A stretch of DNA of 64,000 bases, from contig CALKGG010000002.1 of assembly GCA_938084885.1 (NCBI GenBank), positions 1 to 64,000 on the forward strand. The letters run 5' to 3'. The stretch is from an uncultured Acidimicrobiales bacterium. GTDB taxonomy: Bacteria; Actinomycetota; Acidimicrobiia; Acidimicrobiales; SHLQ01. Of the stretch, positions 6,997 to 40,029 are shown piece after piece. A program made the translations under genes and the position numbers. The notes under the pieces were generated by a model, which was not told the DNA's origin, did no database searches, and was given only the letters and a program-made list of their open reading frames with translations. Each line of letters opens with the position of its first letter. The first letter of the stretch is position 1.

Positions 6997-8457
6997 CTAT
7001 ACCTCAGGCCAGAGCTCGGTTCCTTCGTTGAATTGGCTCCAAGCAAACCAGAAGGACTGGTGACCAGCAATGTCGTTCCCGTCGGCGTCGACGGCCTTGA
7101 TGCCGCTGCCAGAGAGCACGATGGTGATGCCGTTGACTTCGATGGTTTGTCCTGCTTGCAGTGCGCCGACGGCGGAATCCACGTGGAACGCAATCGGCGT
7201 GCCATCTTCTTGGATGATGCCGAGGACATCCTCTTGTACATCGAGGCGGGGGTCGACATCGCCAATGGGGAAGATTGGTCCTTCGGCATCGCGGCCGTTG
7301 CGGAAGTCGAAGTCCCGGCCGAGGGCGAGCTCCTCGACGAGCACATCGGTGTTCGGGTTCTCTTCAACCCAGGCGCCCCAGGTTGACGTGACGACGGTGT
7401 GCTGTTCGAGCTGAATGCCGGCTTCACGGAATGGACCGGTCTGTGCGTTCCCGAGGAAGGTGTCAAAGATTGATCCAGTGTTGAGTTCGTACATCACCTT
7501 GTTCGACCGGGTGAGCAACCCTGAGGTGCGCAGAATTGGACGCTCGAAACCGTCGAGGTTGTCGGTGTCGGTAAACCACAGTTGCGCCGAACCGCAGAGG
7601 GTGCAGTACGGAATCGCGAAGTCTCGGCCGCCGAGTGAGTCGTTGACCATTTCGCGCACTTCCATTATCTGGCGTGGGTAGGCGCGGGCTTCGCCGTTGA
7701 TGACGACGCCGAATATGACGTCATCGTCTTCAAGCCATGCGGCTTCTGATGCGGGCTGTGTCTCGGGGTTATCGACCGCAGGGATGCAATTGCAGGTGGT
7801 CCCTGGAGTTTCGTTGTAGGGCTGGTCGTCGATTCGCACGCCACCCCAAGAAACAAGTCGCCAGTCGACGGATCCTTCTGGGTCAAAGAATGGTTGCCAG
7901 TCGATGAGGATTGAGCTGAAAATGGCGCGCTTGGCATCGATGTAGTTCGGCGGCTCCGGAATATCCCAAGCAATCATGGTCGCCGTGATCTCGTTCCAGT
8001 CACGAGGGCTGAAGTCTTGGCCCAAGAGGTTGCCTGAAGCGTCGGCGAGGGCTCCAGCGCGACCGGGATCTCGGCTGAAGCGAAGAATGTCGGCGAGCAC
8101 CCACACCACTCGTGGGTCTTCGCTTTGGCCGAGCAGGGCGATTGCGTCGAGTTGTTCGCCGGTGAACGGAATTTCGTCGATATCGGTTGATGTGATCAGT
8201 TCGATCGCGGCAGCGTGCTCTGGGGAGAGGTCGCCCTCGGGCACAGCTGGCGCGGGACCAAAGTCTTGTTGTTGGCCAACGGGGAGATCGAATACGAACT
8301 CTCCCGGTTCGGCGTCGTCGCCGGCGCTGCTGTTGTCCCCGGTGGAGGCCGCCTCGGCGTCACTGGTTGCATCGGGAGAAGCTGAATTGTTTGTCGAAGA
8401 CGAACATGCAGCAACGATCACCACGATGACCGCGAGAAGAGCAAGCAATTTTCCCAT
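6997..8457 (-). CDS. DUF3179 domain lipoprotein
   Basis: 486 residues. The N-terminus is a lipoprotein signal (hydrophobic run then IVAACSS, Cys at residue 18), followed by a Ser/Asp/Ala-rich linker of about 45 residues that places the domain outside the membrane. The DUF3179 part has its conserved features: VINGEARAYP near residue 255, FAIPYCTLCGSA near 295 with the CxxC pair, and an RTSGLL segment. A second cysteine pair (TCNC) lies before it. No activity is established for DUF3179; the cysteine pairs and neighbouring cytochrome c would fit a redox or metal-related envelope function, which is inference. Transcribed divergently from the DUF2231 membrane protein with a ~110 bp shared upstream region. 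Confidence 0.85.
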   Translation of the reverse strand: MGKLLALLAVIVVIVAACSSSTNNSASPDATSDAEAASTGDNSSAGDDAEPGEFVFDLPVGQQQDFGPAPAVPEGDLSPEHAAAIELITSTDIDEIPFTGEQLDAIALLGQSEDPRVVWVLADILRFSRDPGRAGALADASGNLLGQDFSPRDWNEITATMIAWDIPEPPNYIDAKRAIFSSILIDWQPFFDPEGSVDWRLVSWGGVRIDDQPYNETPGTTCNCIPAVDNPETQPASEAAWLEDDDVIFGVVINGEARAYPRQIMEVREMVNDSLGGRDFAIPYCTLCGSAQLWFTDTDNLDGFERPILRTSGLLTRSNKVMYELNTGSIFDTFLGNAQTGPFREAGIQLEQHTVVTSTWGAWVEENPNTDVLVEELALGRDFDFRNGRDAEGPIFPIGDVDPRLDVQEDVLGIIQEDGTPIAFHVDSAVGALQAGQTIEVNGITIVLSGSGIKAVDADGNDIAGHQSFWFAWSQFNEGTELWPEV

Positions 8458-37868: not shown

Positions 37869-38705
37869 TTAGGTCTTCTTTGCCGCCTGGTTGGCCCGGC
37901 GTTCCGCTCCGGCCGCAGCCAAGGCTTCGGTGTCGTCGAGCGACATATAGGTCTCTCGCCAGTCTTGCGGTCCCGTCCACTCGACCGGGATCACCACACT
38001 CGATTGAGGAAGCACCGCTGCTTCAGCAAACCGAAGGGCCGCTGTCAAGATCCGGCGTTGCTGCTCGGCGTCGCCGGACGGACCGACCGGGTTACCGAGC
38101 GGCAGGTCGGTAAACGCGAACCTTGGCACCGCAATCTCGTCGACGATGTCTCGGGCAGAGCCAATGATGAGCGTCGGAATTCCCTCGGCTTCGAGATGTC
38201 GTGCAGTCAGACTCACGGTCTGGTGGCAGACGGGTCAAAGCGGCGTCAGGACGGCCAGATCAACACCATCGTCGGCAAGCGCCTCGCGAATCGTTTCCGC
38301 CCATTTGTTCGTTCGACGTTGGCTATAAATCGTGGGGATGCCGGCAAAGCGCGGAGCGAGCGAACCAATGACGCCGTCGGCGGCCAGAGCGGCCAGATGA
38401 TCGAGCGGCAAGTACGCACCGAGGTCGTCGGTGTCGGTCGCACCTTTGTGCCACGACAGATGCTCAGTAGCCAACGACGCAGGGGCAGGTTGTGAGCGTG
38501 CCGTGTACGGCGAGAGCGGAGCGTCAGGCGAAAGCGACGCCGTCGTGACCAGGCCCACTCGACATTGCGACAGCGGCTTTGTGAAGGGTGTGAAGGGAGC
38601 GTTGGTGTGTGTGGCCCAGCGATACGGCGCATCGTAGCCTTGCGCGGCGTAGTACTCGCGAGACTTGTCGATGTAGCTCACAAACGTCCGGTGCGCCTTG
38701 GTCAT
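37869..38705 (-). CDS. Selenoprotein of the glycine/sarcosine/betaine/D-proline reductase B (PrdB/GrdB) family, Sec at in-frame TGA
   Basis: The frame is interrupted by a single TGA at 38235-38237 but both sides are homologous and in phase: before it ...LAVLTPL, after it PVCHQTVSLTARHLEAEGIPTL. Reading TGA as selenocysteine gives LTPL-U-PVCHQT, the redox U-x-x-C motif of this family, where many relatives have Cys at the U position. Total 278 residues from ATG 38705, Sec at about 157. The N-terminal part (YIDKSREYYAAQGYDAPYRW) and PFTPFTKPLSQCRVGLVTT also fit the family. A hairpin follows the TGA. Possible role: reductive cleavage or redox chemistry on an amino compound; the substrate is unknown. 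No selA, selB, selC or selD lies in the window. Confidence 0.85.
38202..38228 (-). promoter_or_regulatory. Candidate bacterial SECIS hairpin
   Basis: On the minus strand, beginning six bases after the in-frame TGA, TGC pairs with GCA, then a 3x3 internal loop, then CAGAC pairs perfectly with GTCTG around the five-base loop CGTGA. Position and size suit a bacterial SECIS read by SelB. The sequence also encodes protein, so pairing is a compromise; I could not compute its stability. Confidence 0.5.
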
Positions 38706-38823
38706 ACCCAATCATGGCCGATGCAAGTGCAACATGTCGTCAGCGAGCCTCTCGCCGCCTCAGGAGCGAAGAATAGGTCATTCGGCCTATGCACAAAATA
38801 CCCAATGACGTCGATCATCGGAC

Positions 38824-40029
38824 ATGCTCAAGAAGTCCTGCGCCGTGGTTTGTATCTGCCTGCTCTCCATCCTTGGACTTACAGCCACCGCCGGAGCGCA
38901 ATCGGCGTCGTCGACGCTACGGATCGAGGAAGGAACAACCGGCGCAGGATTCTGCGGCGTAGACGGCTGGATTCACAACAACCACGCGGGCTTCACCGGC
39001 GAGGGCTTTGCCAATACGCAAAACCAGCTCGGTAACGGAATCGACTATGCAATCTATGTCGACGAAGCAGGGAGCTACGACTTCGAATTCGGATATGCCC
39101 TCCACGGACCTGAACGCTCGGCGGAAATTCTCGTCGCCGGAGTCGCGCACCCGTTCGTCTTCGAAGGCACCGGCGCGTGGACGAACTACCAGACATCGCC
39201 AATTCAGACCCTCCAACTTCCCGCAGGTGTGCACACGCTTCGACTCGTTGGAACCGGTAGCCAGGCCCTTCCGAACCTCGACTGGGTGAACATCACCGGC
39301 GGTTCGGTTACCGAGGCACCGTGCAATGCAAACTCCAACGCGGCAACACTCGAACTTCTCTCACCAAACTCGATCGACTGGGTTGCTGGCTCGACGGGCT
39401 GGTTGAACCTGACGCTGACCTCCGATGTCACTGTTAGCAACGTGTCCGCATCGGTCATCGACAGCTCGGCTGGTGTCTCGTTCGACTACCCCGGTAGCGC
39501 CGATTCGTCGTCCCTTAGCCAAGACTCGACACTGTCGCCATCAGAAATCGACTACAGCTCGATCAACTTCACGACGCCATCAGCAGAAGGAATTGCGACG
39601 GCGACTATTCAGATCAACTTTGAGTGGCTCGGCGTTCAACACTCGGTCGTCGAAACGCTCGAGTTCTCCAACGTCAATTATGAAGGTGAAGACTTCGCAA
39701 TTCTGACCGAATCGGGTGAGCTCACTACCTCGCTCGATGCGCCCGAAGGGAACTGGTTGGAGTTGAACTACCTTGGTCTCTCGCCAGTGAACAGCCACCT
39801 GGAAGTGTCGGTCGACGGCCCGTTGGACGCGTATCACCCGCAGGGCACCTACACCGGTCTTCACTACGACGCCCACCTTCACGGCGGCGAGCGCGATGTC
39901 GCCCGAGTGTGGTTTGATCCAGCAACGTTGGATGCGGGCAGCTTCACACTCACCGTCAGCATCGAGTACGTCGACGCCAACGGTGAAGCAAAGACGACCT
40001 CACATGACGTCGTCGTGCTCGTCAGCTAG
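38824..40029 (+). CDS. Secreted carbohydrate-binding-module-like protein
   Basis: 401 residues. Sec signal peptide (ICLLSILGLTATAGAQS), then a jelly-roll domain of about 130 residues resembling CBM6/CBM35 modules: YAIYVDEAGSYDFEFGYAL, EILVAG and TLQLPAGVHTLRLV, ending in LDWVNITGG, the usual strand with a ligand-contacting Asp. The remaining ~250 residues are beta-rich with Ig-like character and no recognised catalytic residues. The protein is probably exported and binds polysaccharide or a surface. No anchor motif was seen. Stand-alone, convergent with purK. Confidence 0.7.
   Translation: MLKKSCAVVCICLLSILGLTATAGAQSASSTLRIEEGTTGAGFCGVDGWIHNNHAGFTGEGFANTQNQLGNGIDYAIYVDEAGSYDFEFGYALHGPERSAEILVAGVAHPFVFEGTGAWTNYQTSPIQTLQLPAGVHTLRLVGTGSQALPNLDWVNITGGSVTEAPCNANSNAATLELLSPNSIDWVAGSTGWLNLTLTSDVTVSNVSASVIDSSAGVSFDYPGSADSSSLSQDSTLSPSEIDYSSINFTTPSAEGIATATIQINFEWLGVQHSVVETLEFSNVNYEGEDFAILTESGELTTSLDAPEGNWLELNYLGLSPVNSHLEVSVDGPLDAYHPQGTYTGLHYDAHLHGGERDVARVWFDPATLDAGSFTLTVSIEYVDANGEAKTTSHDVVVLVS

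Follow-up and report, generated by a model that had tools for sequence, protein, structure and literature searches.

Two open reading frames lie in the same frame on the minus strand of the window (the whole 64,000-nucleotide stretch of Acidimicrobiales DNA that was analyzed) and are joined by a single TGA codon, and the question is whether they represent two genes, one broken gene, or one gene in which TGA encodes selenocysteine (Sec, U). The first-pass annotation had proposed the last of these; it placed both frames and the joining TGA correctly and left the strand unstated. We put the probability at roughly 0.96 that this is one selenoprotein gene, in which the UGA at 38235-38237 would be decoded as Sec to give a single-domain PrdB-like product with a U-x-x-C motif. 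Each check suggested with that annotation and carried out here, from the alignment of the junction to the search for a hairpin and for Sec genes, came out in favor of this interpretation.

A single reading frame across the TGA

Under the standard code the locus yields two fragments, as had been predicted. The upstream one (38238-38705, minus strand; residues 1-156) by itself resembles a separate hypothetical gene; as an open reading frame it spans 38235-38711 on the minus strand with a TTG start, and the ATG at 38703-38705 is the better start. The downstream one (37869-38216, minus strand) has an apparent GTG start at 38214-38216 and would not contain the U-P-V-C-H-Q motif, and the peptide PVCHQT between the TGA and this GTG is also in open frame. 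With the TGA read through, the gene occupies 37869-38705 on the minus strand, from the ATG to a TAA at 37869-37871, and encodes 278 amino acids: MTKAHRTFVSYIDKSREYYAAQGYDAPYRW...DLAVLTPL-U-PVCHQTVSLTARHLEAEGIPTL...ANQAAKKT. The TGA (38235-38237, minus strand) is residue 157 counted from the ATG and opens the U-P-V-C motif, in which Cys160 (38226-38228, minus strand), the second residue of the U-x-x-C redox pair, is an invariant column of the alignment. The residues at the junction are T-P-L-U-P-V-C-H-Q-T, so that the reading LTPL-U-PVCHQT given in the first-pass annotation is reproduced when the TGA is translated as one residue.

In profile searches the joined protein matched the PrdB model TIGR04483 with E=2.4e-22 and 79.5 bits. 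Each half also matches this model separately (33.2 bits, E=3.4e-8 for the upstream half; 22.7 bits, E=5.7e-5 for the downstream half), which bears out the claim of homology on both flanks of the TGA. Because the joined protein fits PrdB far better than either half, the gene is best regarded as one unit. Matches were also found to TIGR01918 (GrdB; E=1.4e-6) and to PF07355 (GRDB; E=1.7e-4), the latter with the joined protein just under the cut-off and the upstream half above it. A significant profile match together with a Sec/Cys residue at the U-x-x-C position places the protein in the PrdB/GrdB superfamily. The TGA falls in the same alignment column as the TGA of the Peptoclostridium acidaminophilum and Acetoanaerobium noterae PrdB genes (U-G-T-C-H), and non-selenium relatives have Cys there, so that the U indeed aligns with the Sec/Cys column.

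Two separately translated proteins, the second begun at the GTG that lies 18 nucleotides after the TGA, would account for the same pair of frames. Such a second protein would, however, miss the conserved P-V-C-H-Q located between the TGA and the GTG. P-V-C-H-Q follows the codon in all 110 homologues compared, and residues 157-162 are invariant in the alignment when Sec is counted as Cys. Moreover, the Cys homologues are one uninterrupted protein, and an AlphaFold model computed from 54 relatives is one compact, continuous domain across the junction (pLDDT 96.3, pTM 0.93). We therefore give next to no credence to two proteins, and treat the locus as one gene.

Among the 110 homologues, which range from the same genus to other phyla, the codon at position 157 is TGA in 53, TGC or TGT in 57, and nothing else in any of them. 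Of 198 genomes of the order, 70 carry the gene or a paralogue, and almost every copy has to be read through a TGA; wherever the matches in these 198 genomes contain an internal stop, it is always exactly one TGA and never TAA or TAG. On a tree built without the Sec/Cys column, the Sec and Cys states change four times. We then compared selection before and after the TGA against close relatives, and the pN/pS values of the two parts are nearly the same (0.17/0.17 for L022, 0.16/0.15 for L052, 0.22/0.24 for L023, and 0.28/0.27 for L054) at dS values of 1 to 2.7. Equal purifying selection on both sides of the TGA means that the downstream part is translated and functional. The UGA thus aligns with Sec/Cys and is flanked by conservation on both sides, the pattern used to recognize bacterial selenoproteins. 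Neither the conservation of the TGA, nor its exchange with Cys, nor the purifying selection on either side of it comes anywhere near what chance would give.

These data bear directly on a pseudogene, in which a nonsense mutation or a sequencing error would have split a once intact PrdB-like gene. Two fragments under the standard reading are what such an event would leave, but separately assembled genomes of the genus, of the order and of several phyla share this TGA, internal stops are never TAA or TAG, and equal purifying selection on both sides at dS 1 to 2.7 refutes loss of function downstream. A pseudogene is accordingly extremely improbable, and the first-pass annotation was right to call a random nonsense mutation a poor explanation for a TGA at exactly this redox residue. 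An intact gene with a translated TGA is the reading that we carry forward.

Selenocysteine machinery and the hairpin after the TGA

The components of Sec decoding were looked for family by family in the genome, which is 93% complete. SelA, SelB, SelD and tRNA-Sec are all present: contig C23 carries selA with selB immediately after it, and selD as well, and a tRNA-Sec with a UCA anticodon is found on C24 (64.3 bits; gathering threshold 47). Neither of the two findings named in the first-pass annotation as speaking against it, a lack of Sec machinery or a TGA lying off the conserved Cys/Sec position, was made.

A full-length protein would likewise result if the UGA were read as another amino acid, e.g., Trp, without selenium, through general reassignment or leaky termination. 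Yet TGA is the stop codon of 6 of 10 neighboring genes, and the genetic code is therefore not generally reassigned. Only Cys replaces the residue in relatives, the genome has the complete Sec machinery, and the codons that form the hairpin described below are kept only in TGA genes. Read-through without selenium is thus barely tenable, and the selenium reading of the TGA is very well supported.

Within the order, SelA is found in 65 of the 70 gene-bearing genomes and in 52 of the 128 others (P = 4.9e-14, Fisher's exact test, a value inflated by relatedness). The only near-complete genome that has the gene and no SelA match (G173, 97% complete) carries TGC at the position. Four others (G001, G063, G170, and G187) have a TGA-type gene and no SelA match, an absence that weighs little because these genomes are only 78-85% complete. 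The 52 genomes with SelA and no match to the gene (G004, G007, G010, and about 50 further) presumably maintain Sec decoding for other selenoproteins.

The hairpin reported at 38202-38228 is real, and consists of an apical stem-loop at 38208-38222 (minus strand) within a longer fold at about 38198-38231. The apical stem has 5 bp (CAGAC at 38218-38222 pairing with GTCTG at 38208-38212), the loop is CGTGA (38213-38217), and the spacing from the TGA to the loop is 17 nt. In its loop, stem, guanosine and spacing, the hairpin agrees with the bacterial SECIS model (PMC13188914). The longer fold has a free energy of -12 kcal/mol with a shuffle z of -1.5, and 18 of 200 shuffled sequences were as stable or more. 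Taken singly, the hairpin of this gene is not clearly beyond chance against a synonymous-codon control (P = 0.24). A SECIS-type hairpin thus follows the TGA, as the proposed SECIS check anticipated; it fits the model, and its significance comes from the comparison across relatives.

Raw hairpin energies over 42-48 nt did not differ between Sec and Cys genes, and they are uninformative because GC-rich sequence folds anyway. The two classes separated when the synonymous-codon control was applied to the short hairpin region: Sec genes fold better than their own synonymous versions (mean z -1.77; 62% with P < 0.05), whereas Cys genes do not (mean z -0.45; 9% with P < 0.05), and the difference between the classes is significant (P = 3e-11). 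The codons tell the same story. For the identical peptide HQTVSL, Sec genes use GTG in 36 of 37 cases and AGT for serine in 37 of 37, whereas Cys genes use GTC in 39 of 49 and AGC in 42 of 49, counts that are inflated by the relatedness of the sequences. Yet AGT makes up only 6% of serine codons in the Sec genes. In an independent-pairs test of Sec state against the hairpin, three to four of four pairs lay in the expected direction, a number of pairs that cannot reach significance. In six Sec relatives (L023, L024, L054, L025, L036, and L041) a SECIS-like hairpin is shifted by about 5 nt and formed by another stem (e.g., CGGUC..GACCG in L023, L024, and L054), and the sequences suggest SECIS turnover inside one family.

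Relation to proline reductase and probable function

PrdB is the closest characterized family. For Clostridium sticklandii, the D-proline reductase PrdB was recognized as a selenoenzyme by Kabisch 1999 (cited in PMC13188914). The protein encoded here shares with clostridial PrdB (TIGR04483) an identical Sec codon position, U-x-x-C-H, and about 30% identity over most of its length. In favor of a true Sec-containing D-proline reductase subunit working with a PrdA-type pyruvoyl partner are this closeness and the identical Sec position. On the other hand, the score of 79.5 bits is far below the 300-bit equivalog cut-off of TIGR04483, and the host genome contains cytochrome oxidase genes. PrdA is the pyruvoyl-bearing partner in D-proline reductase, and a search for it gave no match in this genome (G000, 93% complete) or in 11 other gene-bearing genomes, with the PrdA of Acetoanaerobium (1024 bits) and that of Peptoclostridium detected as positive controls.

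The flanks were also inspected for a partner. Clustering of neighbors was dominated by shadow ORFs, and neighbors were then checked on a hand-picked set, which included PurK, a carboxymuconolactone decarboxylase-like protein, BKACE, a CN-hydrolase, a CoA-transferase and an amidohydrolase; none of these was common, and no recurrent operon partner was recognized in the flanks of gene-bearing genomes. With a score far below the equivalog cut-off, no match to PrdA and no recurrent partner recognized, a D-proline reductase subunit is very unlikely. Since no PrdA was found, the protein is probably a free-standing relative of PrdB, that is, a UxxC selenoreductase in an oxygen-respiring actinobacterium. 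More broadly, we consider it likely that this is a PrdB-like selenoenzyme of oxygen-respiring Acidimicrobiales, SAR324, Chloroflexota and proteobacteria that acts as a reductase without the PrdA pyruvoyl subunit. If this is true, then the "proline reductase" label of metagenome surveys would be wrong for the PrdB-like selenoenzyme.

In a close relative (L052) the gene lies directly after purE-purK. In the window, a gene for a secreted protein with a CBM6 domain (38824-40029, plus strand) is located between purK and the selenoprotein gene. With purK and the selenoprotein gene adjacent in L052, the CBM6 gene was perhaps inserted in this lineage.

GrdB (PF07355; TIGR01918) is a more distant homologue over the Sec region; it differs in that its models run to about 430 positions and that GrdB works with GrdA, for which a search, run without a positive control, gave no match in the genome. 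Cys-type proteins annotated as "glycine/sarcosine/betaine reductase selenoprotein B family protein" (in Bradyrhizobium, Roseomonas, and others) share 40-46% identity and have C-P-V-C-H-Q in the same place, but differ by Cys in place of Sec and by the absence of a conserved SECIS hairpin.

In the AlphaFold model, residue 157 lies just before a helix (158-173) and after a strand (150-154). Sequence and fold searches of the PDB gave no convincing relative among solved structures; the substrate therefore cannot be read from structure, and the assignment of the active site rests on family precedent. SelB and tRNA-Sec would decode the UGA at 38235-38237 at the hairpin that begins about 12 nt downstream, and Sec157, at the N-terminal end of the helix that follows the strand, would pair with Cys160 in U-x-x-C. 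From the family and the motif, the protein is most likely a selenol/thiol reductase; in line with the proposal for PrdB/GrdB, its Sec157/Cys160 pair would alternate between the selenol/thiol and the selenenylsulfide state.

Earlier reports of the family and further copies

The PrdB-like selenoprotein family is already known, and its host range and its lack of PrdA are less known. With 42 genes, the UxxC-containing "Proline reductase PrdB" ranked third in abundance among the selenoprotein families of the Sargasso Sea survey of 2005 (PMC1088965), and the GOS survey of 2008 gave 235 members (PMC2398784). The UxxC motif, pfam07355 and the abundance in marine bacteria are alike, and these sequences very probably belong to the same family as the gene described here, a match made by description. 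As far as the available text of the two reports goes, no host or partner is given and the function is taken from the PrdB label, whereas the gene here is placed in the genome of an actinobacterial order together with Sec machinery. A literature search on PrdB-like or Acidimicrobia selenoproteins returned only surveys and unrelated papers, none of them on Acidimicrobia selenoproteins. In these surveys the family ranked with the most abundant selenoproteins of the sea, yet the searches brought up no solved structure for it. Under the standard code the locus falls into two pieces, and an annotation made in that way would overlook both the selenium dependence of these actinobacteria and one of their selenoproteins. 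The genome and its relatives offer a concrete set for asking what role a stand-alone PrdB-like selenoprotein plays.

A second PrdB/GrdB-like gene in the same genome (L001:1378-2271; contig C121, with about 7394-8161 matched) is 37% identical and also has an in-frame TGA (ALLVPV-U-PVCHQS). This brings the number of candidate selenoproteins of the PrdB/GrdB-like kind in the genome to at least two. In genomes of family f40 (G178, with L032 and C176, G152, G040, and G121), Cys-type copies stand beside TGA-type family members, and G178 additionally has a TGA-type close copy; duplication followed by a Sec-to-Cys change is a candidate explanation for these copies.
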